Source: Syntrophus aciditrophicus SB (GTDB lineage Bacteria; Desulfobacterota; Syntrophia; Syntrophales; Syntrophaceae). From it: a stretch of DNA of 64,000 nucleotides. The translations under genes and the position numbers were made by a program. The notes under the pieces are model-generated. The model was given only the letters and a program-made list of their open reading frames with translations, made no database searches and was not told where the DNA came from. Of this stretch, positions 7,851-43,963 are shown one piece after another. The stretch covers positions 1-64,000 of the forward strand of contig NC_007759.1 in NCBI RefSeq assembly GCF_000013405.1. Reading direction: 5' to 3'. How positions within the stretch are numbered: the first letter of the stretch is position 1; the number at the start of each line of letters is the position of its first letter.

Positions 7851-8270
7851 GTGAACGAGTTCTGGCGTCTTCTGGATCATACGGCGGATCTCGGCATTGA
7901 GGTGGAAGGCCCTTCTCTGGAAGAGCTTTTTGCCCATGCGGGGGAGGCCATTTTTGAACTGATGGTGGAACTGGACACGGTGGAGACCGCGGTGAGCCGC
8001 CATCTGGTTATTGAGGGCGCCGATCTTGCCGATCTCTGGGTCAATTATCTCCGGGAAGTGCTCTATCTCTGGGGCGGGGAGAGCCTGCTCATGAAAAAGG
8101 TCCAAATCATTAACCTGACTGAAACCTCGCTGGAGGCAACCCTGTACGGTGAACCCTACAATTCCCGCAAACATGAGCTGATGATGGAAATCAAGGCGGT
8201 GACCTACCACCAGGCGGAAGTCGTCCGTACCCCGGAAGGGTGGAAAGGACGGGTGATCTTCGATGTCTAA
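7851..8270 (+). CDS. Archease (RtcB ligase activator)
   Basis: Archease is a small protein that helps the RNA ligase RtcB form its guanylated intermediate and reach multiple turnover. The 139-residue product shows the family features DHTADLGIEVEG near the N-terminus and the C-terminal EIKAVTYHQAEV, where acidic metal-site residues sit. The start is a GTG two bases after the gyrA stop, with a purine-rich GGAGAGG ribosome site inside the end of gyrA. Its last 8 bases overlap rtcB, so translation of the pair is probably coupled. Confidence 0.9.
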   Translation: MNEFWRLLDHTADLGIEVEGPSLEELFAHAGEAIFELMVELDTVETAVSRHLVIEGADLADLWVNYLREVLYLWGGESLLMKKVQIINLTETSLEATLYGEPYNSRKHELMMEIKAVTYHQAEVVRTPEGWKGRVIFDV

Positions 8271-9711
8271 AATCAGTGTGACGCTGAACAAGCTGGATCT
8301 CTGCCGCTGGATGATCCCGAAAACCGGGGGAATGCGGGTTCCCGGCATCATTTACACCAGCGAGGAGATGCTGCGGGAAATGGGGGATGATCAAAGTCCC
8401 CAGCAGGTCATGAATGTGGCCTATCTTCCTGGAATCGTGAAGTATTCTCTGGCTATGCCGGACATGCACTGGGGATATGGGTTTCCCATCGGCGGTGTGG
8501 CGGCTTTTGATTTGAAAAACGGAGTGATTTCCCCCGGTGGGGTGGGGTACGACATCAACTGCGGCTGCCGGATGATGACCACGAAGCTGAACTTCGAGGA
8601 TATCCGCGATCATGTGCGTGAGCTGGTGGTTGCCCTTTTTCAGAACATTCCTACCGGAGTCGGGTCCACTGGCGTGCTCAAGCTGGCCCAGAAGGAAGAG
8701 CGCCAGGTGCTGACGCAGGGTTCCCGCTGGGCGGTGAGCCAGGGATACGGTACGGATGAGGATGTCGAGACGACGGAAGATTACGGCGTGATGACCGGCG
8801 CCGACCCGGATAAGGTGAGCCCCCGGGCCATGGAACGGGGGAGGGATCAACTGGGAACACTGGGATCGGGAAATCACTTTCTGGAAATCGAGGTGGTGGA
8901 AGAAATCTTCGATCCGGATGTGGCGGCTGTCTTCGGCCTGTCCGTCGGTCAGGTGGCCGTGTTGATACATAGCGGCTCACGGGGGCTGGGATATCAGATC
9001 TGCGATGATTACCTGGCCCGGATGGTCAAAAAAATGGGTGAACTGGGTTTTGACCTTCCCGACCGGCAGCTTGCCTGCTCCTGGCTGGAATCTACGGCGG
9101 GTAAGGATTACCTGGCCGCCATGGCCTGTGCAGCGAATTACGCCTGGGCAAACCGGCAGATGCTGATGCACTGGACACGAGAAACCTTCGAGAAAACGCT
9201 GCAGAAAGCTCCCCGGGAACTCGGCATGAAACTGCTGTACGACGTCTGCCATAATATCGCCAAACTGGAAACTTTTCCCGTGGACGGCGAGATGATGAAA
9301 CTCTGCGTGCACCGGAAGGGCGCCACCCGCTCTTTTCCTCCCGGACATCCCGCACTGCCCGAGCGCTACCGGAAAGTCGGCCAGCCCGTGCTGATCCCCG
9401 GCGATATGGGAACCGGCTCTTACGTGATGGTCGGTACAGAAAAAGCCTATCAGGAGACCTTCGGCAGCACCTGCCACGGCGCCGGACGGGTCATGAGCCG
9501 GGCTCAGGCGACGCGCGCCAGCGCGGGCCGGTCGGTTGCAAAGGAAATGGCCGACCGGGGAGTAATTGTCATGGCCTCCGGCAAGGGCACCCTGAAAGAA
9601 GAAATCCCCGAAGCTTACAAAAGGCTGGACGACGTAGTCGATGTGGTTCACCGCGCCGGCATCTCCCGCAAAGTCGCCCGCCTGCGGGCTGTGGGATGCA
9701 TCAAGGGGTAG
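8263..9711 (+). CDS. rtcB: RNA-splicing ligase RtcB
   Basis: RtcB joins RNA 2',3'-cyclic phosphate (or 3'-phosphate) and 5'-hydroxyl ends using GTP and Mn2+; in bacteria it serves RNA repair. The 482-residue protein has the expected metal-binding pattern: PDMHWGYGFPIGG, GGVGYDINCGCRM (Cys ligand), GSGNHFLEIE, and HSGSRGLGYQ. The guanylated histidine region appears as STCHGAGR near the C-terminus. The start overlaps archease by 8 bases. No RtcA or RtcR is present nearby, so regulation probably follows the gyrA transcript or an internal promoter. Confidence 0.95.
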   Translation: MSKISVTLNKLDLCRWMIPKTGGMRVPGIIYTSEEMLREMGDDQSPQQVMNVAYLPGIVKYSLAMPDMHWGYGFPIGGVAAFDLKNGVISPGGVGYDINCGCRMMTTKLNFEDIRDHVRELVVALFQNIPTGVGSTGVLKLAQKEERQVLTQGSRWAVSQGYGTDEDVETTEDYGVMTGADPDKVSPRAMERGRDQLGTLGSGNHFLEIEVVEEIFDPDVAAVFGLSVGQVAVLIHSGSRGLGYQICDDYLARMVKKMGELGFDLPDRQLACSWLESTAGKDYLAAMACAANYAWANRQMLMHWTRETFEKTLQKAPRELGMKLLYDVCHNIAKLETFPVDGEMMKLCVHRKGATRSFPPGHPALPERYRKVGQPVLIPGDMGTGSYVMVGTEKAYQETFGSTCHGAGRVMSRAQATRASAGRSVAKEMADRGVIVMASGKGTLKEEIPEAYKRLDDVVDVVHRAGISRKVARLRAVGCIKG

Positions 9712-26705: not shown

Positions 26706-28385
26706 TCACAGCAGGTCGGCCGCCTCACTGATTCCCCGCGCTTCCTCTGCAAGCGAAGAAATTCGAGAGGTTTCTTCGTCGAGGAGAGCCAGGGGTTCTT
26801 TCAGGTCGTGCTGTATCTCAAGAAACAGGCGTTCGAAAATCTGTGTGATCTCCTGATCCAGCCGGCCCCGGAACTCATCCCGTGATTTATCCATCTTCTG
26901 CGAGAAGTCTTTCATAATGGCGCTGCGTTTCCAGAGCAGGGTCACCGCGACCAGCCCGGCGCCCACCGCGGCCAGGATGCCTCCGGTGATGTCAAAGGCA
27001 ATGAGATGCGTCGCCATGGCGATGACGGCCCCAAGAGCGGCGATGCCCCCGCCGGTCAGCGTGAGTTTGCCGAGCTCAGAACCCTGAATGCCTTTTTCGT
27101 CAACAATGTCGGAAATGCGGAGATCCCGGAGCTGGCTCCTCAGCCGTTCGAGGATATCCAGCCGGTCCGCGGCGACAGGGTGGCTCCCCTGCTGTTGACG
27201 CTCCTGCCGATGGGCGATCGCCAGGGACAGATCATCGAGCATGGCCTTCATTTCATCGGAGAGGTCTTTCGAAACGCGTGAGGACTCGGCCTCGATCTCT
27301 TCCTTTGCCGTTTTCTCAAATTTATCCTGGGTTTCCCTGATCCAGGTTTTTACATCCTTATCGCGAAGATAGGGGATGGAGCGGCTCAGGATCGTCCCGA
27401 TCTGCAATCCTTCCCTGAAATCCTCCTCGAGCCGGGAAGCAAGGCGATCGTAGGAAACGCCGAGGCTGTCCACGACCAGGCGCCGGAGCGAATGCGCCTT
27501 TTCCCGACGCCCTTCCACCCTGGCCAGCAGGTCCTGATAAAATGCCTTGTCCTCCGCTATGGCGGCCTCCTCCCGACGCAGTTTCGCGAGGAGGTCGTTG
27601 ACGATCTTGCGGACCGTATCCCGACATCCCTCCAGTTTCATGCGCCAGACCTCGCCGCTCTCGACGGCGTCGCGCAGATATTCCCGAAACTCCGCAAAAC
27701 CGCTGTCCGAGGCTCCGTCAAGTTCCCGCTTCGCGGACACCGTGAACAGAACAGGATTCTGAACGTTCCGTTCATGGGCGTACTGCTTCACCCGCTCCTG
27801 ATTGACGGCAAGCTCCCGCTGGGTGGCCAGATCGGCCTGCTGCAGAACAAAAACGGTTTTCCGGTGCCAGTCCTTGCGTACGAGCGACAGGAGTTCCCAC
27901 GCCGTGGCGGTATGGGGATTCTTGGCCGGAAAAACGAAAATAACCAGGTCGCTCTTCGGGATATAATTCTCCGTAATGGTCTGGTGATTGCGGATGATCG
28001 AGTTCGTGCCCGGCGTGTCCACAATCGTGATATCCCGCAGCACCGTTTTGGGCAGGGTCAGTCTCTCCCAGTAATCCCCCAGGACCGTCTTCGACCGTTC
28101 CTCGCCGTAGGCCAGTTCCTGAATGACGGCCGTGCAGGGGTCCGGAGCGACTTCGCATACATCCTCGCCAAGAAGCGCATTGACGAAGCTGCTCTTTCCG
28201 GACTTGACCTCGCCCACGACAACGAAAAGAGCCACCGACTGCAGAAGCGCCAGACGGTTCTTCAGGATTGCCGACGCCTCGGTTTCCGAACACTTGTCAG
28301 TCAGCGACAGGCATCGCTGGAGAACATCCCGCAGAAAATCATACTTCTGCTTCAGTTCCTGACTGAGGACACGTTGTGCCGCCAT
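26706..28385 (-). CDS. Dynamin-family GTPase
   Basis: A 559-residue bacterial dynamin-like GTPase. The N-terminal G domain has Walker A GEVKSGKSSFVNALLG (about residues 58-73), the switch region TAVIQEL, and DTPGTNS (G3). The middle and C-terminal helices include long coiled coils. Two hydrophobic segments at about 430-480 (LGAVIAMATHLIAFDITGG and LAAVGAGLVAVTLLW) could act as a membrane paddle. Such proteins remodel or repair membranes, and some protect cells during phage lysis. It is a single gene that ends 51 bases from the convergent DUF533 gene. Confidence 0.88.
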   Translation of the reverse strand: MAAQRVLSQELKQKYDFLRDVLQRCLSLTDKCSETEASAILKNRLALLQSVALFVVVGEVKSGKSSFVNALLGEDVCEVAPDPCTAVIQELAYGEERSKTVLGDYWERLTLPKTVLRDITIVDTPGTNSIIRNHQTITENYIPKSDLVIFVFPAKNPHTATAWELLSLVRKDWHRKTVFVLQQADLATQRELAVNQERVKQYAHERNVQNPVLFTVSAKRELDGASDSGFAEFREYLRDAVESGEVWRMKLEGCRDTVRKIVNDLLAKLRREEAAIAEDKAFYQDLLARVEGRREKAHSLRRLVVDSLGVSYDRLASRLEEDFREGLQIGTILSRSIPYLRDKDVKTWIRETQDKFEKTAKEEIEAESSRVSKDLSDEMKAMLDDLSLAIAHRQERQQQGSHPVAADRLDILERLRSQLRDLRISDIVDEKGIQGSELGKLTLTGGGIAALGAVIAMATHLIAFDITGGILAAVGAGLVAVTLLWKRSAIMKDFSQKMDKSRDEFRGRLDQEITQIFERLFLEIQHDLKEPLALLDEETSRISSLAEEARGISEAADLL

Positions 28386-28879
28386 TCAGTTCTCCTTCTC
28401 CGCATGGGGGTGAGTGTATTTTGTTAACCGGCGCTTGGAGAGCGCAGCGGAATCATCGGAATAGGGAATTGCTTCAGTCCTTCAAAATCCAAAGGACAGT
28501 ACCATATTCAAATTACTCTATTTAAAGCAGTGAAACAAATTAATTATAAGGAAAAATTATCTATACTGCCGTTCCCGATGCAGGGTATTGTGTCGCCGGG
28601 TACCGGGATTCCGCAGACCGCCCGCAGACAGGCGCTGGTGAGAATGTGTTGCCCTGCGGATGCGCATCGCAGCCCAATGCCGGCATGTCCGGCAGAGACG
28701 AAGTGGAAGATGTTTCCGCCGAGTGACCTGAAGGGCGGGCATCGGCTGATCCGGATCCGGCTCCCGACTTAACGATTACGGCGGATCGATTAACGATAAG
28801 TTTACGAATACAGCATCCCTTCCATCTTTGCCGCTTTGTCCAGGCGGTTTACAATTCGCGGATTCCGCTTTACGATTGC
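28386..28879. other. Intergenic region with a repeated TTWACGAWT motif
   Basis: No confident gene is present. Toward the right side, six near-copies of a 9-base motif occur in 120 bases: TTAACGATT at 28769, TTAACGATA at 28790, TTTACGAAT at 28801, TTTACAATT at 28848, TTTACGATT at 28869 and TTAACGATT at 28880, which overlaps the stop of the next gene. This may be an operator or iteron-like array, or a chance repeat in a decayed 3' end. The left part holds the promoter region of the dynamin gene, with no clear -35/-10. Confidence 0.4.
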
Positions 28880-30421
28880 TTAACGATTCTCCCGGGCTTT
28901 GAGGCGGTAGCGGGTGGAACGGCCGGCCCCCAGTTTTTCCGCCAGACCCAGGTCAACCAGCAATCCGAAATCTCCGGCCGTAATCGGGCGGGAAACGCCG
29001 AATTCCGCCTCACACTGCCGGCTCGTCAACTCCTGCCCTTCGGCAAGCCATTGCAGCATTGTCCTTTGCCTTTCATTCAAACGCGCCTCCACTGCCGGGG
29101 TTACAGAGAGACGCTTCTCCGGCGTCCGCAGGAGATCGATATTCTCGCCGGGACCGGGAAAGGTGACTTGAAAATAACCCATCTCCGTGTTCAGAATCGG
29201 CAGATCGAGCCCGTGGTTGAGCATGTGGTCGCGCATCCGCCGGAAGCCGCTGCCGCGCTCCTCGATGCGGTGGAAATAGGATAGACACTGGGCCAGAACG
29301 GGATTGCGCGAACAGGGCCGATAATTTCCTCTTCTCAGGCCGGCCAGGGTGATCGGCCGGGGAGGCAGTCCCGGGCTGGAGATGACTATGCGGTCGGCGA
29401 AGACTTCGAGGATGATCTTGCGGCCGGCGTCTTCATACTGACGGTGGGCCACGGCGTTCACCAGGGCCTCGCGCAGGCCGTCGACAGGGTATTCGTCAAG
29501 GCGCACGCGGTTGAGGCCGACAATGCGCATCGGGTGGCGGGTGTTCCGGTCGATAAAGTCGATGGCGCGCTCGATGGCCAGCGGCATCGGACCCCGGATG
29601 TCTTCATGGTCGCGCGGGTCCCCGTCGGGTAACGTGCTCCGGTAGGAATCAGCGAGAATCCGGCATTGAGGAAAGACCGCCGACGGGTCTTTCGCCAGCA
29701 GGACGATCCCGGCGGCGGTGGCGTAATGTTCCCGCAAGGCCGGGTCATACCAGACCAGTCCGCGCAGGACGGCGCCAGCGAGGAGGTCGTCATTGGACAG
29801 CTCATCCGGATTGCAACGCTCGGCAGAGGCGATCAATGTGCGGGCGACGTCCAGGTCGAGGTCGCGCCAGCGGATCCTGTCGAGAGGACGGGATTCGAAG
29901 GCGGAAGTGGCCTCGATGGTCGATTCGGCGATGGAATTTTCGTCATTCGTCGGCGAGATCTCGAACCGCTCCTCCAGCAGGGCGACCAGCGCCTCCCGGA
30001 CTTCCTTCTGGAGTTCGATAACGTTGCCGAAACGTTGATATGTGGGGCCGTCCACATTCAGTTCGTCAAGAAGCCGTACCGTTTCCTCTTCCCGCTTTAC
30101 GCTGCGGTCTCCCCTGATGAAGGCCAGAACGGGAATATCTCTTTCCTTCGCGCGGCGATATTCTGTGTGGGGTAGAGACAGTCCGTCCACAGGCATGCCG
30201 TATTCGGTTCCCACGATGAGCAGATAAACCTGGCATTCGTCGAGAGCTTGCAGGCATCCCTCCAGCGATTCTTGCGGAGAGGCAGGCTCAGTTTCGGAAA
30301 GGACGGGCGTGCAGTTCGCCGACAGGAAAGCGTCGGTATTCAAAAGGTTCTGGACGACCAGCCGCTCGTCTTCCAGTTCCTTCCGGACAGAGCTGATAAA
30401 AACGTTGAGTTTCGTGGTCAT
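28880..30421 (-). CDS. DUF4062 protein with RecG-like/HATPase_c_4 C-terminal region
   Basis: The 513-residue protein starts with a DUF4062 domain (about 1-85): KLNVFISSVRKELEDER, then CQVYLLIVGTEYG. This fold is related to TIR/SLOG-type nucleotide-sensing domains. The middle (about 270-400) resembles the ATP-binding region of RecG-related transcriptional regulators (HATPase_c_4), with LREALVNAVAHRQYED and RIVISSPGLPP and the RNPVLAQCL segment. A C-terminal winged helix ends the protein. The start at 30421 (MTTKLNVF) has AGGAG upstream; a longer frame to 30457 lacks this. Similar proteins occur in defence islands. Its role here is unknown. Confidence 0.78.
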   Translation of the reverse strand: MTTKLNVFISSVRKELEDERLVVQNLLNTDAFLSANCTPVLSETEPASPQESLEGCLQALDECQVYLLIVGTEYGMPVDGLSLPHTEYRRAKERDIPVLAFIRGDRSVKREEETVRLLDELNVDGPTYQRFGNVIELQKEVREALVALLEERFEISPTNDENSIAESTIEATSAFESRPLDRIRWRDLDLDVARTLIASAERCNPDELSNDDLLAGAVLRGLVWYDPALREHYATAAGIVLLAKDPSAVFPQCRILADSYRSTLPDGDPRDHEDIRGPMPLAIERAIDFIDRNTRHPMRIVGLNRVRLDEYPVDGLREALVNAVAHRQYEDAGRKIILEVFADRIVISSPGLPPRPITLAGLRRGNYRPCSRNPVLAQCLSYFHRIEERGSGFRRMRDHMLNHGLDLPILNTEMGYFQVTFPGPGENIDLLRTPEKRLSVTPAVEARLNERQRTMLQWLAEGQELTSRQCEAEFGVSRPITAGDFGLLVDLGLAEKLGAGRSTRYRLKARENR

Positions 30422-30696
30422 TGGGGTGAATCTCCTGCCATGAAAAGCCTCTTCCATAAATATTGTAGTGGGGCATCAAGACGAAATATGGAGATATATT
30501 TATCCTTCATGGAAGGAGAGTTTCAATGATAAATCTCCTTTTTAGAGGAGAATATTGTCTATAAGTCTTCAAGTGTCAGTAATCGGATGATTGCACTTTC
30601 ACTTACCGGGGCTCAACGGAGAACTCCTGCTCTCTTTACGATGTTCAGATCCGTAATCAACCGAATCCTGAGGGGTTGGAAAATCCAGAGGATTAC

Positions 30697-30917: not shown

Positions 30918-33900
30918 CTATTCCGTCTCAAATCCCTGACTTGTAAATTTCAGCGTCCGGCTGTTTTCAGTCACAGTGCGGACCACATGATCCGGGGCGC
31001 CCGAGGGAATATCTGCTTCAACCTCCAAGGTCACCGTTACTTTCGCACCGACCAAACCGGAAAGATGTGCAATCACTTCATCGGCAATAAGGCTGGCGTC
31101 ACGTCCGACACGGGTGGCATCAAGGGTGACTGTACCATGAAATCGTTTCGGTTTCAGTGTGCCTGGCGTATCCGACGTTCCTGCTGGACTCCCGTCAGGT
31201 TCTGTTGTTGTCGATTCCCGGCCTCCTGTTGTTCCGGCGATGGTGAGATTGACAGGTTGTTTACTTTTCTCCTCGTCCATCTGTTTGCAGGCGATATCTG
31301 ATTTCACGAGCAGGCCCTGCATTTCACCATCGGCAATTGCAACCTCTTCCCCACAGCGCAACCCCCGGTACCGACCGGTACTTTCATCGTAACTGTCTGC
31401 GAAGGCAAAGGAATCCTGGATCCATAATAATAAGGCTAATCCACTGCGGATCGCACCGATAAGGACGGATGAATCCTTCAGCCGCGGGAGGTAAATAAAG
31501 CTTGCAAAGTCCTCGGCAAGCTGTTTGATCGCCACATGATTATTGTCACGCCAGAGTGGAATCCCGTCCAGCTCCATCCGAAGTCTTGTAGCCGCAAAGC
31601 TCGTAATCAGCAATTCGTCATTCTTCAGTTTTTTGCTCGCCCGCACCGCCAGCGCGTCTTGTCCTGAAAGACGCATGGCCTGCCATTCGATGGGCACTTG
31701 CGGATTTTTCTGTACGGGAACCAGAAGCCACTGATACGTTTCCGGCAGGCGCGCAGTTACAGCGCTGTCTGCCGCAGCCTTCTGGGTTTCGGCCTGCTTC
31801 ACCTGTTGGGGATCAAGATTCAGTCCTTTTTCACCCTTTTCGGCGAGAATAGATTCCCAGGCAAGATACTTCCGGGTCGCCTCATCGAGGTCCTGCATCC
31901 GCGACTTGTCAGCAGCAAGAAAAACAAGGGTGTTGCGATAGCGGCGTGGCGTACTTCCGCGGGACTCAAGAATCGCTTTGGCGACAAGCTCGGCAGCGCT
32001 TCCTGCCCCCTTGCTGTAGGGGTGATTGATTCCAAGAACAACTAAGCGCGAGTCAAGATCATCGGACACGTCCTGTCCCGACTGCGGCAAGGCATGGATG
32101 CGGCTGAAGTCGCCCCTGCGTTCCAGATCTTTGCGCAGGCGTCCATCAAGCTCCAGCAGCACCTTGTCAGGGTCGCGCTTGAGTTGTTCAGCCCTGTCTT
32201 CTGCCAGTTTCGTTACAGTGGGCTGGGTCGAATACCAGAAGCGTGGTCCATCCTGGTATAGGTACGGTGGCTGCACCAGCCAGCCTCCGCAGGGCGTCTC
32301 CGAAAACAGAGGGGGACTCACCCGGCATCACACAGCCGAGTTTCACCTGCCGATCCTCGATACCGCGATGCGCGGCCTGCAGGAGAGGCGCAGAACCCAT
32401 GTAAATGGTGCGTGCAACGCGCCGACAGGCCGCAAATTTGCCGAGATTCGGAACTTCGCCGTCAATCCTGAGCGGCAGAGAATTTGGTCCATCCACATCC
32501 TTTTCAATGATCGGCGCCCAGTTATCGGAAAGGTAGCGTGTCAGCTCAAATTGCACACGCGGATCATCAGTCGCGATATTGGCCGGCATGATGAGTGGGT
32601 TTCTGTCACCCTTTTCCCAAAGACTGTGAATGACGGCTGCCATCAGCCGCAGGACGCCCCGTGTACGTTGGAACTTCACCAGTGTGGACCAGTCGGTGTA
32701 GAGTCGGTCGAAGATCTCCGGATGAATGGGGTAGGCCGCCTTGATACGCTTTTCATAGTCCGCGTCGTGGCAATCCGGAGGAAATTCAGCCTGCTGTGTT
32801 CGGTAAAAGTCTGCAAACCCCCGTGCTACAACATCGCGATCCTTGAACTGGGCAGGATCGGAAAGAGGTTCAAAGAGCCGCCGCCGCACAATTTCAAAGC
32901 CTTCCTCAGCGCTTGCCGGACGCCATGACGACTCTACCCGCCCGACGACATTCCTCAACCTGTCCAGTGCTTCCCGTCCGCGCTGACCTCCCACTTCAGC
33001 GTCATCGGTCTGTGCGTGAGGCGATCCTGTCGTATCCGAAGCGGGAAGGCTGATGACCAGAAGGCAATTTTGGGCCAGTTTGGCCGACTCTGTAAGCACC
33101 TGCGCAAAGGTAAATTGTGTTTCGAAACTGCCTGCAGGCAAATCGCTCTGGTCATGGAGCTGGCGGGCATAGGCCACCCATTCGTCGATCAGGATCAGGC
33201 ATGGTCCATATTCTACAAACAGTTCGCGCAGGACATCGCCGGGGCTTGTTGCCCTCTCATCATCTGCGGCCAGTCGATTGAAAGCTCGCTTAGCCTCGTT
33301 TTCGCCTCCGGCAGCGTATCCCAACTGCCATGCCAGCTCGCCCCAGAGGGTTCGAACGATGGTGCCATCATGCTTGGTCGTCGGATTACCTGGAGAGATC
33401 TTGTTGCCGACAAGGACTACTCGCCGGGCTGCCGGCAGTTGTGTTTTTCCCGCCTCCCGCATGACCGCGTCTATGCCGGGGAGTTCCGTGGGAGCAATGC
33501 CGGAAAACAGGTGGTAGAGCGCCAGCATCGAATGAGTCTTTCCACCGCCGAAGTTGGTTTGAAGCTGTACCACCGGGTCTCCACCCTGACCTGAGAGTCT
33601 CTGCACCGCTCCGACGAGCATTCTTTTCAAGCTGTCCGTAATATAGGTGCGGCGGAAAAATTCCACCGGGTCCCGGTACTCGGCGGTACCTTCGCCCATG
33701 CGCACCTGCCAGAGATCTGCGGCGAACTCGGCTTGCTGATAGTGACCGCTTGCCACATCCCTGTGCGGTATAACCACCTCACGCCACGGTTTGAGATTAC
33801 CGGATACCGTGCTTTCGATGGCCGCCCCGGCACTTTTGCGTTTCTCACTACGCACCTGCTCGTCATAACGCAGGCGCATAAGCTCCATTTTCATCTTTTC

Positions 33901-34290
33901 GATTTCATCGGTTTGTGATGCGGAGATGGCGGACAAAAGCCTTCCTGCGGAATCAAGGATTCGATAGATATCGTCTCCGGAGAAAGACTCCTGATGAGCC
34001 CATTTGTTGCGGTAGTCCCGCAGTTCACTCACCAGACTCCGCTCCGTGTGTCCCAGAGTCTGACGGAAAACTTCATTCCAGGATTCCCACATCAGTTTAA
34101 GTAGAGGGGCGACGTCCCAGTCCGCAATCGGTTTCCTGGCATTCAGGCGATCATCACCAATAAAGCGCTCTATTTTGGCGGATGCTCCATCCCGGTAACT
34201 GTTTTTGAATTCACGTGCGATAAAAGGGCTAAGACCGCTCTTCAGAAGTTCCAGTGCTTTACGGGCACGTTCATGGTTTGTTATGGCCAT
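30918..34290 (-). pseudogene. DUF499 ATPase with Swt1-like HEPN N-terminus, frameshifted
   Basis: From ATG 34290 (AGGAG 7 bases upstream) the first frame has an N-terminal Swt1-like HEPN domain (about 1-125), including RNKWAH (R-x4-H, the HEPN RNase motif). A P-loop NTPase follows, with NFGGGKTHS (about 246-254) and ILIDEWVAYARQL (Walker B). After GDALRRLAGAAT the protein continues in another frame as YLYQDGPRFWYSTQPTVTK and runs to 30918. The switch lies near 32264-32267 and is explained by one extra base. Joined, it is about 1120 residues. DUF499 ATPases accompany DUF1156 methylases in defence operons. Here it would be inactive unless the shift is an error. Confidence 0.85.
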
Positions 34291-34294: not shown

Positions 34295-34897
34295 TCACTC
34301 CTGCCTCATGGCACTATGACGAGCTTTCTTTCGTATTTCCATATTATTGATAACCTGATGCACTCCTTTGATGAAAAATTGGAAACTTATTGAAAAATTC
34401 TCCGTTTCCCGAAGCGGCATGGCCGTGCCCATCTGACGGGTGCCTTCTATTTTTCTGAATTCGGGTATTAGTTTCACAAGTTCGGAAGAAGGACTACCGA
34501 GACGATCCGGATTTCTGTATTTAGCCTTTCGATTAAGTCCGGTCAGCCTTGGGCGGTTATAGACATCTGCTAGGACATCCATTACACCAAGGTACCATGA
34601 CTCCAACTCTTGGCAGACTATGCGAATCAGGACATCCGATTGCCCTCCTCCTTTGCAAAGATCCATAAGTCTTTTTTTGACAAAATAGCAATCGGCACCA
34701 TCATTATCGCGGACAATGACGAATACCCCCCGACGAAATGCCTTGAGCTTTCGAGGAATGCTCTTCTCCAGATCCTGTTTGCCTTCATGGGTGATGCAGA
34801 GATATTCAAGATCGGGCAGGAACCGCGGCAAGAATTCCTCGAGAAAGACCTTCATTGAAGGTTCTTCCAGAAGGAAAATAATCTTTTCCATCGACAT
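34295..34897 (-). CDS. DUF4276 family protein, TOPRIM-like
   Basis: The 200-residue protein begins IIFLLEEPSMKVFLEEFLP, followed by FVIVRDNDGADC and CQELESWYLG. The early Glu and the D-x-D pair resemble the metal site of TOPRIM folds, consistent with DUF4276. The start is set at ATG 34897 (or 34906), overlapping the end of the AAA ATPase gene upstream. DUF4276 proteins are often the partners of AAA_21 ATPases, and such ATPase/TOPRIM pairs (PARIS, AbiL and RloAB type) act as abortive defence. Which of these it resembles most cannot be decided by eye. The DUF499 gene starts 4 bases after. Confidence 0.75.
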   Translation of the reverse strand: MSMEKIIFLLEEPSMKVFLEEFLPRFLPDLEYLCITHEGKQDLEKSIPRKLKAFRRGVFVIVRDNDGADCYFVKKRLMDLCKGGGQSDVLIRIVCQELESWYLGVMDVLADVYNRPRLTGLNRKAKYRNPDRLGSPSSELVKLIPEFRKIEGTRQMGTAMPLRETENFSISFQFFIKGVHQVINNMEIRKKARHSAMRQE

Positions 34898-34899
34898 AG

Positions 34900-36093
34900 T
34901 TACCATGCCCCTTTGAAAACGCCTTGACGCCAGAGGGCTCCTGGGTGATCGCCTTCGGCAACCAGTCGCTTGAGAACTTCACTGTCCGCACCGCGATAAA
35001 TGGTCGAATAACCGTCTTTCTTGGATAACCAGTATATTTCGTCCAGATACAATCCATTCATAAACTCAGGAGAATGAGTCGATATGAACACCTGGCCGCC
35101 CCTTCTCGCATAATCACGAAATTCTTCAGCCAGCTCCTGCAAAAGTTCCGGGTAAAGTTGGTTTTCCGGTTCTTCTACTGCCAGAAGCGGAAAGGGGTTG
35201 GGGTCGTGCAGCAGCACCAAATAAGCAAACATTTTGATGGTTCCATCGGATACATACCGGGCAATGAAGGGATCTTTAAATGCCCCGTCTTGAAAACGTA
35301 GCACCAGTCTCCCGTCTTCCGTAGGTTTTGCTTCCACTTTTTCCACTCCGGGGATGCGTCTTTTCATGGCATCGAGGATGTTGTTGAAACGATCAGGGTG
35401 ATGATCGTAGAGGAATTGTGCCACTTGGGCAACATTATCTCCCCGCGTGGAAAGATGTTCGGCATATCCCTCCTCGGCGCTGGGCCGGGCGTCGGCTATA
35501 TGAAAATCGGTGATATGCCAGTTTTCAATGAGATTGCGGAATTCGGAGACCACACGGAACTCTTTAAACTGTCCCAATCCCTTGATCGCGAGTACCGTAG
35601 GCTCATCCAGAATGTATTCCTTCCTTTCCACCTTCACCCCAGGCTTCCCATACATGGCTTCGTTGGTGACGGCCGTTCCTCTGCCTCTTGAAAAATCGAC
35701 GAAATGCCAAGGTTGACCGCGCTGCCCCCTGCGGAACTTGAGCACTTCTCGGTCCACAACGACTCTGCCACCTTCAAAAGCCACGGATAGTTCGTAAGTA
35801 GCCAGTCTTCCCCCGGTTTCGCGAAACTTCAGTGTAATGGAGATGGGCCCCTCGGTTCCCCTACTGACCAGTTCCTTGAAACCTCCCCGCCTGGCGACGG
35901 CCTTTGCCGCATTCTGGGCAAGGGAGTCTTTCAAAAATGAAAAAACATCGAAAATTGTTGATTTTCCCGCGCCATTCTCGCCAACAAACACAGCGAGTCG
36001 CGATAATTTGTTCAGTGAGGCCTGCTTAAATAAACGATAATTCTGAATATCAATACTCTCAATCTGCATACCCTGTATTTGCATTCCAGCCAT
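34900..36093 (-). CDS. AAA family (AAA_21/RecF-like) ATPase
   Basis: The 397-residue ATPase has Walker A VGENGAGKSTIFDV (about residues 37-50) and, near the C-terminus, an ABC-like signature region with LLAVEEPENQLYPELLQEL (Walker B, Glu pair) and FISTHSPEFMNGL (H-loop). This layout fits OLD/RecF-type AAA_21 proteins found with TOPRIM-like partners. The AGGAG ribosome site 9 bases upstream supports the start at 36093. The gene lies between the DUF1156 remnant (22 bases away) and the DUF4276 gene (overlapping). It probably senses or loads the partner nuclease. Confidence 0.85.
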   Translation of the reverse strand: MAGMQIQGMQIESIDIQNYRLFKQASLNKLSRLAVFVGENGAGKSTIFDVFSFLKDSLAQNAAKAVARRGGFKELVSRGTEGPISITLKFRETGGRLATYELSVAFEGGRVVVDREVLKFRRGQRGQPWHFVDFSRGRGTAVTNEAMYGKPGVKVERKEYILDEPTVLAIKGLGQFKEFRVVSEFRNLIENWHITDFHIADARPSAEEGYAEHLSTRGDNVAQVAQFLYDHHPDRFNNILDAMKRRIPGVEKVEAKPTEDGRLVLRFQDGAFKDPFIARYVSDGTIKMFAYLVLLHDPNPFPLLAVEEPENQLYPELLQELAEEFRDYARRGGQVFISTHSPEFMNGLYLDEIYWLSKKDGYSTIYRGADSEVLKRLVAEGDHPGALWRQGVFKGAW

Positions 36094-36115: not shown

Positions 36116-37190
36116 TTACGCGATTTGTATGTCATCAGTTTCGAAGATGCCTACTTGTGTTACTTTTTGCTCTTTTCTTCCTGTCGACAATCGTATGATC
36201 TCCGGCCAACTTAGTACCAGGCTGTTATAGGAAAGTGCCTCCGCCGCCCGTTTTTTTCGTTCGCACAGGGTGTAGAGGCGATAGGCCAACTCACGGGCGA
36301 TTTCAGCTTTCGATCCCAGTTTGGCTGCAAGCGCAGCAGCAGCACTTTCACCATCGGATTCGAGGGCACGAATCAGTTGATGTGCCATCTCCCAAGCTGT
36401 CAATCGTTGGTCTTTCTCTGGATCCCAGTTATCCTTCAATTCATCAGGGCGAATTAGATGCACTTTGCCGGCTTTTGCGGCAAGGATACCATCCTGGACC
36501 ATGCCTTGGATACTCGTGTTTTTGGCCTTCGAAAGAATTTCGGCCACACCATAGTCTCCCTCACTAAAGCCTGCCTGTTCAAACCACGCCAATGCCCAGC
36601 GGCTGTCGGCGTCAAAGTCACCCTCTTGCTGGGCCAGCGCCTCGTCGAGGATTTGGTTGATGAGTGCCAAAGCATCCCTTACGGTAAGTGGTTTACCTTC
36701 TGCATCAAGCACGTTAGCATACCCGGTATATACCGCCATCCCCGGACCAATAACTGCCTGGGCCAAATCCACGGGTGCAATATTGCTATGCTGCAAATGT
36801 GAAAGTGCTTTGGGTAGTTCGTTTTTGAGCATGTTGACGAACTCTCGGCGTGTGGCGGGGGACGCATCGGCATTACGTTTGCGGCAGACTAGGATTATGC
36901 TGGAGGCAAGTGCATTGGAATTGTTCTCTCTCATTATCCTCGATGATTTTGAAGAGGCGTTTCCGTTCCTTGTCCTGTTCCTTTTCAGTAGGGTATAAAT
37001 CAGGATGTTCCGAGGGGTCGTCCACCATCTGGGCAAAAATCACCGCCCGAGCCGTTGCCAGGGGCCGTCTTGCCCACCAGAGGTGCAGAGTGCTTGGATG
37101 CCCGTGACGGATAGACTTCTCCCGCGCCGATGCCTTATTGATGGCATCGAGAGGCAAGGCGACTTCGATGAGTTTCTTCTTTATTTTCAT
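36116..37190 (-). pseudogene. DUF1156 adenine-specific DNA methylase with deleted catalytic core
   Basis: From ATG 37190 the N-terminal DUF1156 motif is clear: [19 protein letters not shown] and [16 protein letters not shown]. After about 87 residues (RLFKIIED) the frame becomes unrelated. One frame over, the sequence resumes as [19 protein letters not shown] and runs to 36116, matching the C-terminal part of these proteins (FVNMLKNELPKALSHLQ, GPGMAVYTGYA, EGDFDADSRWALAWF). The whole middle, with the SAM-binding and catalytic DPPY motifs (several hundred residues in intact relatives), is missing. The gene begins with a TAATG overlap with the PLD-like gene. Confidence 0.82.
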
Positions 37191-38851
37191 TATGATCCCT
37201 TATTTTTGATAGTCTCATCGATCGTTTTGAGCGAATCGCCGTTTAGAATTCGATACACCAGTTCACACCTGTCTCGCGATTCAAGAGAGGCTTTTTCTAT
37301 TATAGAAAGAAGATTGAGTTCATGTCTGCAGCGATCTTTTAAACCACGACTCCGAAGGTCGCGGCATATGGCGTCGTCCGCCACATTCATGGCTTCGATG
37401 AGGTCGTCTTCAGGCACTTTTAAACCACGCAGATAAAAGCTGTCTGTCATGGCTTTGCGGGGAAAAGCGACAATATCCGAGAGCAGAGAAAAAGCCTGTC
37501 CCCATGGAGAAACCATGGTATTGTCCGTATACGTAAAGCTGATCTTGGAAAAAGAGAGTTTCGGCATGAAGCTGGCGGATTGTACCTTGAGCAGTCGTTC
37601 TTTCAGGTTATCAGTGACCCGAACGATGACATCCTTCCCAACCTGACCCGTTCCCCCGAGTTCTTGGTACATGGCGTTGATGTCCCTGACTAGTGCGGGT
37701 AATTTTTCTTTACTGAAAGCTTCAATGTCACCTTTCAGTAAATCAGAAATGAGCTTCTGCCCTTCCTCATTAATTCGTTTCAACTCTGACTCGAATAACT
37801 TGTAAGCCGTGTCCGGCATCCAACGCATGTTGTCTGCGAGCCCGAAGGTAAATTTTGTGAGAAGTGTGCGCATGCCTTGGCGTCGCTTATCAATCTCTTT
37901 AAGTGTCTTCTCATCAATAATCGATACCCTCATACTGACCTTACGTTTGACGTTACCCTTTTGAAGTTCTGCGGTGTCACCAAAAACACTGGGATCGAGA
38001 GGCGCATCCAAGGGTGGGATACGGCTGAGCTTATCGATGCTGACCAAGGAACCTTTTTCGTAAAGGCGCGCCACAAATTCGGCGAGGTGATCCAGCTTCT
38101 TGAGGCCACCATCTTCTGTAGGCAGTGGAATATCCTTGCCATCTTTGTCTTTGATTTTGATGTCACCGGTCTCAGCATCGACCTCTCCATACGTATCTCC
38201 CGATGCCTGGGAATTAGCGCAGTCATTCATGTAATCCTGCCATAACCTCAGCCCCTCTTCGGACCCTTCCGGAAGAATGAGATCCGGGATTAGTGTCACC
38301 CCCTTGGCAGAGATCTCTCTTGATTTGATCCATAGCAGGTTGAAATAACGACTGAAGCCTTCAACCAGTACAGGATCACCCCGGAATACAAAATTGATAT
38401 GCCCGTCATTCTTTTGCGCCAGGCCGAAATCTTCGCTTGGTCCTGTAAAGATGTAAACTATATCCTTATTCTGTGCCAGACAACAGAGTGTATTCGTTGT
38501 GCGATCAGTAACCGACTTTAGAGGATGGACATGAACTGACAACTGCGGCGAAAACCGTTCGACAAGATCCAGAAGCCGGGAGAGATCCCTCTGCTTGGTG
38601 GCACATGCCGGATAGACCATTACAATGAGATAAACTTTTAGATCGTTATTGCATTCCATCCAAGCCTTGAGGACATCAATGCCCCGCGTAGTCAAAGCAG
38701 ATATGATTCCGAACATGAAAGGTGATTCCAGCACTAAGTCGCCAAAGGGAGGTTGGTGCTTGTATATTCTGTTTCCCTCTGTTACTCGCGGTTCTGGCCA
38801 AAGGAAGGGTATTTGAGGTTCAAGCTCATTAATGAGATTCAGTTGATTCAT
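37190..38851 (-). CDS. PLD-like protein of a helicase-methylase-ATPase operon
   Basis: The 553-residue protein has an N-terminal region (about 40-190) whose strand/helix pattern ([43 protein letters not shown]) resembles a phospholipase D-like fold, but no HxK catalytic motif is seen. The C-terminal half is helical and charged. Proteins of this type occur between the helicase and DUF1156 methylase genes in such operons. It may have a structural or DNA-binding role. Start at 38851 with AGGAA upstream. It overlaps the DUF1156 start by one base. Confidence 0.6.
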
Positions 38852-39017: not shown

Positions 39018-39464
39018 TTATTCCTTTCTTTTCGTACGAGTGTTTTTAAGAGGAATTTTAAGTGCTTGCTGTTGGCTTTCTTCATACAAGGCAACAAAAT
39101 TTAGAGGCGGTAAGTTCAGTGGCGTCATATTTGCCCGCCTCGTCAAGTCCGCAATGGTTTCACGTACATAAGGAAAGATAATAGATGCACAATTGATACG
39201 CGCGATACGTTCCAATTCCTCATCTGAAGGCATCTCATCAAAAGCAAACGCGCCTTCCCAGGCAACGGAAAATCGGAAGGGGAGATTCTCTGAATCGGAT
39301 GAAATCAGGACAAGCACACGGAGAACTTTGTCTGCATGCTTGTATCCAACTTCTATGCTGTGAGTAAGATCGATGACCTTGTTTTTTTCTCTTTTATACT
39401 GATTGTTTATGGCAAAATGAGCTTCATTGAGCTGAATGCCCACGATCTTGAAACTATGATCCAT
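39018..39464 (-). CDS. SecB-like chaperone of a toxin-antitoxin-chaperone module
   Basis: The 148-residue protein matches the SecB fold. It has the C-terminal motif RINCASIIFPYVRETIADL followed by NLPPLNFVALYEE, very like SecB. In toxin-antitoxin-chaperone (TAC) modules a SecB-like protein stabilises the antitoxin. The start is set at ATG 39464 (MDHSFKIV), overlapping the mqsA-like gene by 11 bases. A longer frame to 39539 would overlap more. Together with MqsR and MqsA it forms a three-gene unit, known in part from Geobacter. It is likely not the cell's general SecB. Confidence 0.85.
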   Translation of the reverse strand: MDHSFKIVGIQLNEAHFAINNQYKREKNKVIDLTHSIEVGYKHADKVLRVLVLISSDSENLPFRFSVAWEGAFAFDEMPSDEELERIARINCASIIFPYVRETIADLTRRANMTPLNLPPLNFVALYEESQQQALKIPLKNTRTKRKE

Positions 39465-39981
39465 ATGTCGCCTCTTTGGTATCGGGAGAATAGATTGTAT
39501 CTTTGAATCGATAGCCTTTTCTTGCTCTTGCGTCCTCAATGTAGGTAACTTTTGCTGACAGCTTTACAGTTTGTTCTCTTCTCTGAATGATTTTCAAGGT
39601 CTGCGGATATGCATCCAGAATGCGAAGCAGGTTGTCCATGCCCTTACTTTGGCATACCTGGCCGGATTCATAGCGGGCCACGCTTTTCAAACCACCGCCA
39701 ATGATATTGGCCAACTGTTCCTGCGTGAGTCCCAGCTTGATGCGAATAGCCTTGATCTGTGGTCCCGTGAGAAGGCCATCCACCTCACGCTGGAAATCTT
39801 TCAGAATTTTTCCCGATTCTTTCAATGTTGCACTGTCAACGATGGCCTCACCGCATTCGGAACATTCATAGGTAACATAATTGGGGATTTCCTTCTTTTT
39901 TCCTTTATATTCGAAGGATTCGGTTCCGACTTTTCGTGTTAACGATTCAGCGCCGCAAATTGAACATTTCTGCGCTTTCAT
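39454..39981 (-). CDS. mqsA: MqsA-family antitoxin (zinc finger plus HTH)
   Basis: The 175-residue product has an N-terminal zinc domain with CSICG and CSECG (C-x2-C twice), which should bind MqsR. A C-terminal Xre-type helix-turn-helix (LTQEQLANIIGGGLKSVARYESG) should bind DNA and autoregulate the module. A C-terminal extension of about 45 residues follows the HTH. Such tails are the chaperone-addiction region in other TAC antitoxins; here that is inferred. The preferred start, ATG 39981, lies one base after the mqsR stop, with GGGAG upstream. Confidence 0.88.
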   Translation of the reverse strand: MKAQKCSICGAESLTRKVGTESFEYKGKKKEIPNYVTYECSECGEAIVDSATLKESGKILKDFQREVDGLLTGPQIKAIRIKLGLTQEQLANIIGGGLKSVARYESGQVCQSKGMDNLLRILDAYPQTLKIIQRREQTVKLSAKVTYIEDARARKGYRFKDTIYSPDTKEATYGS

Positions 39982-39982
39982 T

Positions 39983-40324
39983 TTATTCATCGCTCCCTTC
40001 ATCTCTTTTCATCTGGATTAAGACAGCCTTGTCCCTGTCAACGGACAATTGGATCTTGATATAGAGTTTCTTATCACCGTCTTGATAATGGTAAACATCC
40101 TGCCAGATTTCGTGACTATGATATGTGGTCATGGACTTGTAAAAATGTTTTGAGCCGAGCTGTTCTATGACGTTCTCAATATCTTCAACAGTCATATACC
40201 CTTCCGATGCCGCACCTTTATGTGCTATCTGTGTGATTTGTCGAGTTTTTGCGTTAGAGAACAATTCCTTAAACAGGCTGAGCTCGTAATGGGGCCTGCG
40301 TTTTTCACTGATTTTTTGTATCAT
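39983..40324 (-). CDS. mqsR: MqsR-family toxin (mRNA interferase)
   Basis: The 113-residue protein carries the MqsR signature FYKSMTTYHSHEIWQDVYHY and then LYIKIQL, so the residues matching E. coli MqsR Lys56, Gln68 and Tyr81 appear conserved. MqsR cleaves mRNA. It precedes mqsA, as in E. coli mqsRA. The ATG at 40324 has AGGAAG upstream. A 57-base gap separates it from the helicase gene. An imperfect GAAATATTTTC inverted repeat at 40361-40371 might be an operator, but the E. coli MqsA palindrome is not present. Confidence 0.9.
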   Translation of the reverse strand: MIQKISEKRRPHYELSLFKELFSNAKTRQITQIAHKGAASEGYMTVEDIENVIEQLGSKHFYKSMTTYHSHEIWQDVYHYQDGDKKLYIKIQLSVDRDKAVLIQMKRDEGSDE

Positions 40325-40381
40325 TATGATACTTCCTGGCTGGTTGTCAATCTCTTCTTTGAAATATTTTCTCGGTTGAGA

Positions 40382-43300
40382 TCATGAAGGAGCCACTGCA
40401 CGATCCAGAAGTTCCTGAAAGTCGTAGTTGACGCTTGTGACTCCGAAGTCCGGTTCACGCTGGAAAGGTTGCCGTAAATAATGGACTCGATGTGAATCAC
40501 TATCGAGGAATTCCACGATGGCAAGGATAAAATCTTCCGGCTTATTGAGCGAATAAAGGATCTCATTGCGAGTTACGGTGATCGTGGGTGAGCCGGATAT
40601 ACGACCCTTCACCTCGATAAAACGCAGCTTGCCGGTGCCCGGTATTCTGCTCTCAACATCGTAACCGAGTTTCTCGACCTCTCGATCGGTTGGTTCGAAG
40701 CCGAGGCTGCGTTCAATCTCCATGACAATAGCCCGTGCCCGTGCTGCACTGGCCTGTGTATCGGCAGAAGCTGTTAAAGAAACCATTGTTTGACCTTTCA
40801 TGGCCATAAGCAGGCCTTGGGGCACCACCAGCATGCCACCCAGCACCACGGGCGGGAGCGGTGGGATTTGAGCTTCCAGCTTCAGATCTTCAAGCCGTTT
40901 TTGCAGCCGTCCCTGAAGCAGATCGGCTCGCTTCCGGGCCTCTCCGGAATTGAGACGGGCGCCAATCTTGCCGGCCTGCTCCTGGAGTTTGAGCTGCTCT
41001 GCGCGATGATCCCAGTAAGTGATCTCCTTGGTAAGTCTCTCTTTTACCGCTGCCTCGGTCTTGGCAATCAGTTTAAGCCGGTGATCGCGGACTTCTGCCA
41101 GGTGCTCAGGTACGACATGCGCAACTGCATGTGCCTGTGCCCTATTTTCCAGTTCTCGGGTAATCCAGACGCACTCAGGGCGGTCAAGAATTGTTCCCAC
41201 ACCTGGTTCGTCCTTAATAAGCGGTCGATAATCCAGATAGGGTGCGTAATGCACATGGTGAGCTTTGCCGTTGGCATCGAGTTCCACGTAAATCATTCGC
41301 TTGGAAATAATTCGGCGCTCTACTGATCGTGTCAGGCTTGCATCCTGAATCGCATGCTCGAGATAGAATACCACACGCGGCTGGATGCCCATGTCACGGT
41401 CATCCACTAAAACAGCGCCGCGTTTCAAGAGATCACGGTGACGTTCAAGGGTTAAGTCGATAACCGCATCGAGCAGAGGATGACCCGGACAAACAAATGC
41501 AGCGAGTGGCTGCCCCGGCGAATTAACCAGTGCCTTCTCGAAAGAAATGCGTTCATAACGCGGCAGCACCGGTTCGCCGATCCCGATCAGGCGGTCGCGA
41601 TTGCGCACCGGAGCCGGTACATGGGTTACTTCATAGCGGCGTGGCTCACGTTGTCGGACTGATCCGCCAAGATTGCGGAAAGATTCCAGGAAAAAGGACT
41701 CAATATAGTGTGGTTGCAGGCGGCGGGCCTCCGCCCGTTCCATGTCTTCTCGAATACGTTGGACTCGTCTTGCATCCATGGCATCGCGGGCCAAGGCATG
41801 GTCCTCAAGCAGATCCTGAAAATGGTTCCGGTCAAGTGCTTGTTCTACAACCGTCGTAAGGCGGGCGCGTACCTCAGGTTGATCACCGTAGCGAATAGCT
41901 TCAATAAGAAGATCGCGCAACAGTTTACCTTCGAACTGAAGTTTTCCGAGCACATCGAATACCTGGCCACCCAAGGCTTGACGGGCTTGTTCCAGTTTAT
42001 CCAACAATTTACGATAAACGTCGCCTTCGCGGGTTTCATCGGCTACCAGATTCCAGAGATGGCATACCTCGGTCTGGCCGATACGATGAATGCGACCAAA
42101 ACGTTGCTCTATACGATTTGGGTTCCAAGGCAAGTCGTAATTCACCATCAGGTGTGCACGCTGGAGGTTGATACCTTCACCTGCGGCATCCGTAGCCAGC
42201 AGAACCTGCACCTCCGGATCATGCTTGAATGCCTCCTGTGCCTTCATGCGGTCCTCACGTCCCATGCCCCCATGAATCGTCATCACGGCTTCCTTGCGGC
42301 CAAGCAGGGTTGTGATGCGGGTTGCAAGATAGTTTAAAGTATCGCGGTGCTCGGTAAAGATAACGAGTTTCTGGTGCGGTGAAGGGGTGGGTTTAGGAAT
42401 CGCTCCCGCTCCATATGGAAGAGTCGGGTCGGCCACGTTACCGGTGATAGCTGCGGCAGTGAATATCTCCCCCAGAAGGGAAGAAAGTTCACGCCACTTG
42501 GTATCCAGTCCGTTGTGTCGGACTCTGAGTGCAAGCGCTTCCAGGTCTTTCAAGGTCTCAATCTCTGCCTTCAATTCAGCGATAGATCGCGCTGCGGTCG
42601 CCTGATCGAGGATCTCTTCCTCTGCGACCTGGACCTCGTTATCCGGTGCCTCGTCAAGATCCTCAACGTCCTCTGTGTCAAGTATTGGGATGCTGTTTGT
42701 CAGGATTGAAACGGTTTGGCCTCCTCGCTGAAGCAGTTCCATTTCCCGAAGTTTGCTTTCCAGCCGTTCGCGCCGCCGCCGCAGGGATTGATATATCGCC
42801 TCAGGTGAGGAAGCGAGTCTGCGTTGCAGTATGGTCAACGCAAAGCCGACGGTTCCCGCACGCTTATCATTAGCCAGTGCCTCCGCACGATTGAATTCCT
42901 CTCGTACGTAATCAGTAACCGCCTTGTAGAGTTGGGCTTCGAGATCAGAGAGCTTATAGGGAATGGTGTAAGCAATGCGTTCAGGAAACAGTGGTGTACC
43001 ATCGAACTTGAGCAGACTCTCTTTTACCATTCGACGCATCAAATCTGAAATATCGGTCACATGCACGCCATCGCGGAAACGTCCCTCGAAACGGTCGCCA
43101 TCGAGAAGCGCCATAAAAAGCTGAAAATCCGTCTCTTTTCCGTTGTGAGGCGTTGCAGTCATCAGCAGGAAATGTCGCGCCAGTGTCGAAAGAAGCTGTC
43201 CCAGCCTGTAACGTTTTGTGTACTTCGTCTCTCCGCCGAAAACTGTGGCCGACATCTTGTGTGCCTCGTCACAGACCACAAGATCCCAGCGGCAATCAGG

Positions 43301-43963
43301 TGTCTGGAGCTTTCGCTGTACGTCTTCATTTCGGGAAAGCTTGTCAAGACGGGCAATGACAAGGTTCGTCTCCAGGAACCAGTTGCCGGTGTGCGCGGAT
43401 TCAAGTTTATCATTGGTAAGAATCTCAAAGGGGAGATGAAAACGACGGTACAGTTCATCCTGCCATTGTTCGGCAAGGTTGCCGGGGCAGACGATAAGGC
43501 AACGCTGTAAATCACCCCTGGCAATGAGCTCTTTAATAAACAAGCCCGCCATAATGGTTTTGCCTGCGCCGGGATCGTCGGCGAGCAGGAAACGGAGCGG
43601 TTGCCTCGGCAGCATGGCTTCATAGACCGCCGTAATCTGGTGGGGTAGAGGATCAACAATTGAAGTGTGGACGGCAAGTACCGGATCAAAAAGGTGAGCG
43701 AGGCGGATACGATGCGCTTCCGACACCAGGCGGAACATGGTGCCGTCGCCGTCGAAGCTCCACGGGCGGCCATGTTCCACAAGATCAAGACGCGGTTCGT
43801 CATGACGATAAAGCAGTTCATTTGCCAACCTGCCGGTGGGGGTCTTGTAGGTAAGTTCGAGAGCCTCGGAGCCAAACCACTGAACGCTTATGACCGTAAC
43901 GAGGCAGTCCGGGAGAAGGCCGCGTATTGCGGCATGCGGTTGAAGGTCTTCCAGTCGAATCAT
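40382..43963 (-). CDS. SNF2/DEAD-type helicase with C-terminal DUF3883-like domain
   Basis: This 1193-residue helicase appears intact. Motif I is DDPGAGKTIMAG (about 129-140), motif II DEAH (about 232-235), motif III LLMTATPHNGK. The second RecA domain has LATDAAGEGINLQRA and IEQRFGRIHRIGQ (motifs V and VI), the SNF2-like type. A coiled insert (about 375-500) separates the lobes. The C-terminus (about 1060-1165) resembles DUF3883, with KLGYDVES and FIEVKGR, a nuclease-like E-x-K. It is the first gene of the minus-strand defence operon and, in Hma-like systems, is the translocating component. The start has GAGGA upstream. Confidence 0.9.
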   Translation of the reverse strand: MIRLEDLQPHAAIRGLLPDCLVTVISVQWFGSEALELTYKTPTGRLANELLYRHDEPRLDLVEHGRPWSFDGDGTMFRLVSEAHRIRLAHLFDPVLAVHTSIVDPLPHQITAVYEAMLPRQPLRFLLADDPGAGKTIMAGLFIKELIARGDLQRCLIVCPGNLAEQWQDELYRRFHLPFEILTNDKLESAHTGNWFLETNLVIARLDKLSRNEDVQRKLQTPDCRWDLVVCDEAHKMSATVFGGETKYTKRYRLGQLLSTLARHFLLMTATPHNGKETDFQLFMALLDGDRFEGRFRDGVHVTDISDLMRRMVKESLLKFDGTPLFPERIAYTIPYKLSDLEAQLYKAVTDYVREEFNRAEALANDKRAGTVGFALTILQRRLASSPEAIYQSLRRRRERLESKLREMELLQRGGQTVSILTNSIPILDTEDVEDLDEAPDNEVQVAEEEILDQATAARSIAELKAEIETLKDLEALALRVRHNGLDTKWRELSSLLGEIFTAAAITGNVADPTLPYGAGAIPKPTPSPHQKLVIFTEHRDTLNYLATRITTLLGRKEAVMTIHGGMGREDRMKAQEAFKHDPEVQVLLATDAAGEGINLQRAHLMVNYDLPWNPNRIEQRFGRIHRIGQTEVCHLWNLVADETREGDVYRKLLDKLEQARQALGGQVFDVLGKLQFEGKLLRDLLIEAIRYGDQPEVRARLTTVVEQALDRNHFQDLLEDHALARDAMDARRVQRIREDMERAEARRLQPHYIESFFLESFRNLGGSVRQREPRRYEVTHVPAPVRNRDRLIGIGEPVLPRYERISFEKALVNSPGQPLAAFVCPGHPLLDAVIDLTLERHRDLLKRGAVLVDDRDMGIQPRVVFYLEHAIQDASLTRSVERRIISKRMIYVELDANGKAHHVHYAPYLDYRPLIKDEPGVGTILDRPECVWITRELENRAQAHAVAHVVPEHLAEVRDHRLKLIAKTEAAVKERLTKEITYWDHRAEQLKLQEQAGKIGARLNSGEARKRADLLQGRLQKRLEDLKLEAQIPPLPPVVLGGMLVVPQGLLMAMKGQTMVSLTASADTQASAARARAIVMEIERSLGFEPTDREVEKLGYDVESRIPGTGKLRFIEVKGRISGSPTITVTRNEILYSLNKPEDFILAIVEFLDSDSHRVHYLRQPFQREPDFGVTSVNYDFQELLDRAVAPS

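Follow-up and report, generated by a model that had tools for sequence, protein, structure and literature searches.

A toxin-antitoxin-chaperone module of the MqsRAC type as a probable defence cassette in the HmaA/HmaB slot of an Hma operon

Why does an intact toxin-antitoxin-chaperone (TAC) module lie within an operon in which other genes are broken? This question is raised by positions 39018-40324 of the window, i.e., the 64,000-nucleotide stretch of Syntrophus aciditrophicus SB DNA analyzed here (NC_007759.1, positions 1 to 64,000). A sequence-only reading had placed an MqsR-MqsA-SecB module there and proposed that it is an addiction unit that keeps the surrounding island in place. We find all three genes at this location, intact, on the minus strand and with overlapping frames, and we suggest that they are probably a defence cassette carried in the HmaA/HmaB slot of an Hma (helicase-methylase-ATPase) defence operon. 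The cassette has the following features:

39983..40324, minus strand: mqsR, putative RNase toxin, 113 aa (Pfam MqsR_toxin, 4e-31, 107.7 bits; PDB 3hi2 match, 1.6e-11)
39454..40002, minus strand: mqsA, antitoxin with zinc domain and HTH, 182 aa (Pfam MqsA, 2e-25; NCBIfam TIGR03830, 1.7e-40)
39457..39588, minus strand: C-terminal tail of MqsA, residues 139-182, putative chaperone-addiction domain (ChAD), ends -TYGS
39018..39464, minus strand: secB-like chaperone gene (mqsC), 148 aa, ATG start (Pfam SecB, 5e-18; PADLOC PD-T4-9_C, 7e-17)

Judged by these scores, the three family assignments are beyond doubt and chance is excluded; each family has one member across the 3,179,300-bp single-contig genome. 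mqsA overlaps mqsR by 20 nt and, as the earlier reading had noted, also the SecB-like gene, by 11 nt with the start at ATG 39464, which is most likely the secB start rather than the upstream TTG at 39539. The catalytic residues of MqsR, previously described as apparently conserved, are indeed so: K63, Q75, Y88 and K106 correspond to E. coli K56, Q68, Y81 and K96, with no variation among 10 sequences, and the zinc cysteines of MqsA (C13, C16, C47 and C50), also expected to be kept, are invariant in the alignment. In mqsR, the mqsA core and secB, differences are in excess at third codon positions, indicating that all three are under purifying selection. The predicted structure of the SecB-like protein resembles both SecB (1fx3) and the TAC chaperone of M. 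tuberculosis (5mtw). A solitary export SecB was ruled out because the gene overlaps mqsA, has the TAC-type motif FPY[VI]RETIAD.TRRA and does not reach the curated cut-off of any export-SecB model. For an origin of this gene in phages or plasmids, tblastn gave weak matches alone (31-36% identity), labelled export SecB where annotated. Thus, with an MqsR that has its catalytic residues, an MqsA with an extension and an adjacent SecB-like gene, the cassette is, by sequence, an MqsRAC-type TAC module.

The C-terminal tail of MqsA, suspected early on to be chaperone dependent, begins where the match to E. coli MqsA stops, at residue 138, and comprises 44 residues. It is variable, being 21% identical to that of L028, the nearest relative outside Hma operons, versus 65% for the core, and in comparison with L225 it shows hardly any codon-position constraint. 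The tail is also predicted to be disordered, with pLDDT <50 at residues 145-182. These features match the expectation for a ChAD, making the tail a putative domain of this kind. An -AA end is found in 12 of 16 other TAC antitoxins versus two of 17 two-gene MqsA proteins; a ClpX-type degron is usual for TAC antitoxins without being a defining feature. MqsA of the window ends in -TYGS and has no hydrophobic ClpX-type degron (-LAA, -AA, -VA), so that loss through ClpXP may not apply. Its relatives end in -DGV (L225), -YGT (L226) and -YGA (L028), and the -TYGS, -DGV and -YGT ends of the Hma-embedded MqsA proteins suggest that another protease may be involved. We found no description in the literature of embedded MqsA proteins without the -AA end that is frequent in TAC antitoxins.

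The operon around the cassette had been described as a methylase/helicase operon with a broken methylase. The break is confirmed, and the description of the operon is right but incomplete, because this is an Hma defence operon with hmaA, hmaB and hmaC on one strand and with the TAC between hmaA and hmaB, i.e., in the HmaA/HmaB cargo slot. It comprises:

40382..43963, minus strand: hmaA, SNF2-type helicase with C-terminal NOV_C/DUF3883, 1193 aa, intact (PADLOC HmaA, 1711 bits)
37190..38851, minus strand: ORF of 553 aa, second cargo in the HmaA/HmaB slot, between secB and hmaB
36873..37190, minus strand: hmaB remnant, N-terminal 105 aa (88-91% identical to intact HmaB to about residue 86)
36116..37036, minus strand: C-terminal hmaB remnant, from about residue 679 of 963, in another frame (PADLOC HmaB, 1.4e-102 over 702-958)
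34900..36093, minus strand: AAA_21 ATPase, cargo of the HmaB/HmaC slot (PADLOC HEC-01B, 1e-168)
34295..34906, minus strand: DUF4276 protein, partner of the AAA ATPase (Pfam DUF4276, 4e-10)
32188..34290, minus strand: hmaC, 5' part (PADLOC HmaC, 9e-231)
30918..32321, minus strand: hmaC, 3' part, past a single frameshift near 32265; intact HmaC aligns contiguously across the frame change

HmaA is 85% identical to that of G435. Alignment to intact operons places the loss in HmaB at about residues 87-678 (about 590 residues), with a frame change near 36935-36970. With this internal deletion and the HmaC frameshift, the operon is a decayed member of its kind, and because the broken parts of hmaB and hmaC retain a coding-type divergence pattern, the damage is recent or a sequence error. 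The ATPase-DUF4276 pair (HEC-01) of the HmaB/HmaC slot recurs in L142 and L243; such Hma-embedded candidates (HEC) are reportedly the subject of a 2024 preprint by Payne that PMC12255303 cites. The 553-aa ORF has no Pfam, PADLOC or NCBIfam match and no counterpart in 395 genomes or plasmids; the sole relative found is partial and lies at the end of the L244 Hma slot (2e-23). There, at 4271-8752, it is preceded by genes for a 440-aa HATPase and a 965-aa protein, both with matches to the defence protein TmtA, and the ORF of the window may therefore be the leftover of a three-gene cargo. Adjoining hmaC, 26706-30457 encode a dynamin-like GTPase and a DUF4062-HATPase_c_4 protein; a PADLOC match of 28880-30457 to pAgo seems spurious, as this ORF is DUF4062 plus HATPase_c_4. 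The same genome also encodes a second, more distant HmaA-like helicase (615 bits; G000:C1:1730263-1733505).

Is this position of the TAC peculiar to one genome? Genomes with the same position were sought, as the sequence-only reading had recommended, and an MqsRAC module was found in this slot in two, G435 and G521. Among the 149 genomes surveyed from the same order, L225 (G435) has the arrangement HmaA-MqsR-MqsA-SecB-HmaB-HmaC with all genes intact, and L226 (G521), whose contig begins just before mqsR, has MqsR-MqsA-SecB-HmaB-HmaC with hmaB and hmaC intact. The TACs of the window, L225 and L226 form one supported group in the tree (99.9/100). A third genome, G392 from another family of the phylum, has a different TAC in the slot (L200), in which a Gp49/HigB toxin is joined by an HTH antitoxin with a -LAA end and by a SecB-like protein, all above the Pfam cut-offs. 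Besides the window, two of 16 slots contain a TAC if only loci found via HmaA are counted, and most Hma operons examined have none, including all plasmid Hma operons surveyed; the three sampled genomes of the same genus have neither TAC nor HmaA. Elsewhere, the slot contains PDC-S01, SoFic, GmrSD, HATPase/965-aa (TmtA-like) or HigBA-SecB genes, and in close carriers it holds single-gene defence cargo and no TA. One further slot (L146, 4821-8971) has three genes including one for an HSP70-like protein, another chaperone-type protein at this site. Because the HmaA and HmaC trees intermix slots with TAC, PDC-S01 and SoFic, the cargo appears to be exchanged, and the idea of the TAC as a vertically fixed part of Hma is unsupported. 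The GC content of the TAC is about 7-14 points below that of the adjoining hma genes, in the window as well as in L225, L226 and L200. Altogether, cassettes that are either related or acquired independently occupy the same slot, which suggests that phage defences are repeatedly stacked in this manner. In the papers searched, which do not include the 2024 preprint on embedded defences, we found no description of a TAC as Hma cargo.

The order mqsR-mqsA-secB is the same in nine other loci. A genome scan with an alignment of TAC-SecB proteins found such modules at L028-L031, L041 and L042, where no Hma genes are nearby. TACs from the bacterial order of the window were also seen next to an Hma-like operon (L230), a PLD-helicase (L229) and a type III R-M/HKD-Snf2 island (L227). 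Related arrangements were also observed. L021 (1-1883; G072, same phylum) encodes MqsR and an MqsA with a long tail ending in AAAA, has an exact copy of the palindrome described below, but its third gene encodes a 142-aa protein that neither matches Pfam nor resembles SecB; the locus is possibly a TAC with a different partner. L232 (6092-7498) is a TAC in which a DUF4258 toxin is combined with a SecB-like protein and an MqsA-like antitoxin whose end is YALAA. L208 (4164-5297) has a small two-gene pair, BrnT/BrnA-like by eye, of which the second product ends in -PALAA, followed by a SecB-like gene, and would by this inspection be another toxin family joined to a chaperone.

A further feature of the cassette lies at the start of mqsR:

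40318..40332, no strand: palindrome GTATCATAATGATAC covering the mqsR start codon, proposed MqsA operator
40323..40350, minus strand: promoter-like TTGACA-16-CATAAT, 11 of 12 matches, with the -10 inside the palindrome and overlapping the mqsR ATG
40332-40337: Shine-Dalgarno-like AGGAAG

The motif GTATCATNATGATAC is present upstream of or at mqsR in all 10 MqsRAC loci, with a single mismatch in one of them and exactly in the other nine; the 20 two-gene mqsRA loci lack it even if up to two mismatches are allowed. These ten loci are related and thus not ten independent trials, so that the conservation reflects shared descent under constraint. An exact copy occurs once in the genome, and 0.08 hits at ≤2 mismatches were obtained when the window was shuffled; eight viral contigs also have the motif, none of them close to mqsR, and by itself it is therefore not diagnostic. 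The operator of E. coli MqsRA, AACCT(N)AGGTT, differs from it. We infer that the palindrome is the MqsA operator. In the Hma-embedded clade (the window, L225 and L226), it spans the mqsR ATG and the promoter-like -10, with hexamers and spacing in L225 and L226 the same as in the window; outside this group, it lies tens of bases upstream of mqsR. Transcripts from this promoter, if used, would lack the mqsR start, and the toxin would then be made only via read-through from hmaA. Neither the conserved MqsRAC palindrome nor its moved position in the embedded group was found described in the literature.

Published MqsRAC and CmdTAC are anti-phage systems (PMC9519451, PMC10783111, PMC11618068). The module shares its components and their order (MqsR, MqsA and SecB-like MqsC), on which the two were compared, with MqsRAC of E. 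coli C496_10, but differs from it in being embedded in an Hma operon. In the E. coli system, the toxicity of MqsR is rescued only by MqsA together with MqsC, T2 is blocked (PMC9519451), and there is cooperation with restriction (PMC10783111). With Vcho-TAC, the MqsRA-SecB system of V. cholerae RC385, it shares a C-terminal MqsA extension; the need for the chaperone was tested in Vcho-TAC, which is chaperone dependent (PMC5105189). Setting and sequence differ, and ChADs are dissimilar between systems, as they are here. A SecB-like chaperone and an antitoxin with a disordered tail also occur in CmdTAC/PD-T4-9, which is triggered when a capsid protein displaces the chaperone (PMC11618068). However, the CmdTAC toxin is an mRNA ADP-ribosyltransferase and its antitoxin is unrelated and ends in LAA, whereas the toxin here is MqsR, with no PADLOC match for toxin and antitoxin; the module is therefore not CmdTAC. 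E. coli MqsRA (PDB 3hi2, 3gn5) has the same catalytic and zinc residues and core folds but neither chaperone nor tail, while MqsA of the window is tailed and has a SecB-like partner. The operon as a whole resembles Hma operons with HEC in having defence genes within an HmaA-HmaB-HmaC frame (PMC8565338, PMC12988326); by contrast, none of the PADLOC HEC models matched the TAC.

How else could an intact TAC in a decaying operon be explained? TA modules can stabilize DNA, and if the module were chiefly an addiction unit, its loss would kill or stall the cell and the surrounding DNA would be held while Hma decays. This would fit an intact TAC beside a broken HmaB and HmaC, and also lesions in hmaB and hmaC that look recent, with broken parts that have a coding pattern. 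However, the sister TACs in G435 and G521 adjoin an intact hmaB and hmaC, close carriers have other defence cargo and no TA in their slots, the three same-genus genomes are without TAC and HmaA, and the window has no tRNA gene and no integrase among its annotated genes. We therefore regard the main role assigned by the sequence-only reading as unlikely, while the survival of the TAC during decay of HmaB and HmaC is compatible with a possible secondary retention effect. MqsRA was first studied in stress and biofilm settings, and a stress-response TA with no defence role, such as was at one time suggested for E. coli MqsRA, might have reached the Hma slot by an accident of insertion; given that the slot recurs with two unrelated toxin families and that an MqsRAC relative is experimentally anti-phage, this strikes us as very improbable.

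Alternatively, the TAC could be a built-in partner or guard of Hma, in which transcription through hmaA provides MqsR, while MqsA, the chaperone, HmaB and HmaC come from an internal promoter; the toxin would be freed if Hma or its expression were damaged. In support of such wiring, secB directly adjoins or overlaps hmaB in L225 and L226, each of the three embedded loci has a -10 that overlaps the mqsR ATG, E. coli MqsRAC works together with restriction, and other helicase/methylase systems have TACs of this bacterial order as neighbors (L227, L229, L230). But the TAC of the window is intact despite the lost function of HmaB and HmaC, a TAC is absent from most Hma operons, and the internal promoter is a predicted one; we thus hold a guard role to be quite unlikely. 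A related and similarly doubtful conjecture concerns the embedded clade, in which the operator would sit on the mqsR start fused to the internal -10, such that mqsR would be translated only from hmaA read-through and the internal promoter would serve MqsA, the chaperone, HmaB and HmaC. If true, the supply of toxin would be coupled to activation of the defence operon, and the TAC would serve as a dormancy arm by which Hma gains time. The cooperation between E. coli MqsRAC and restriction would here have a wired-in counterpart.

We, therefore, favor the module as a defence cassette in the HmaA/HmaB slot. The parts of this scenario that are seen in the DNA are the three intact genes, the slot, the recurrence in other genomes and the conserved palindrome. 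By analogy to known systems, MqsA would bind MqsR, which would cleave mRNA, and would repress the module via the palindrome, while its tail could neither fold nor persist in the absence of the SecB-like protein. Once phage proteins occupied this chaperone, MqsA would be lost and MqsR would halt translation, thereby blocking phage growth. Because Hma is decaying, the TAC in the window probably acts alone. An anti-phage role is suggested by its relatives and by the defence setting.

TACs are known to be anti-phage and Hma operons are known to carry embedded defences; for a TAC as Hma cargo, we found no earlier description. The palindrome is a concrete candidate operator and could help to locate further MqsRAC modules. 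Two unrelated toxin families in one slot, together with TACs beside other helicase/methylase systems in the same bacterial order, make a link between chaperone-sensing TA modules and DNA-modifying defences testable.
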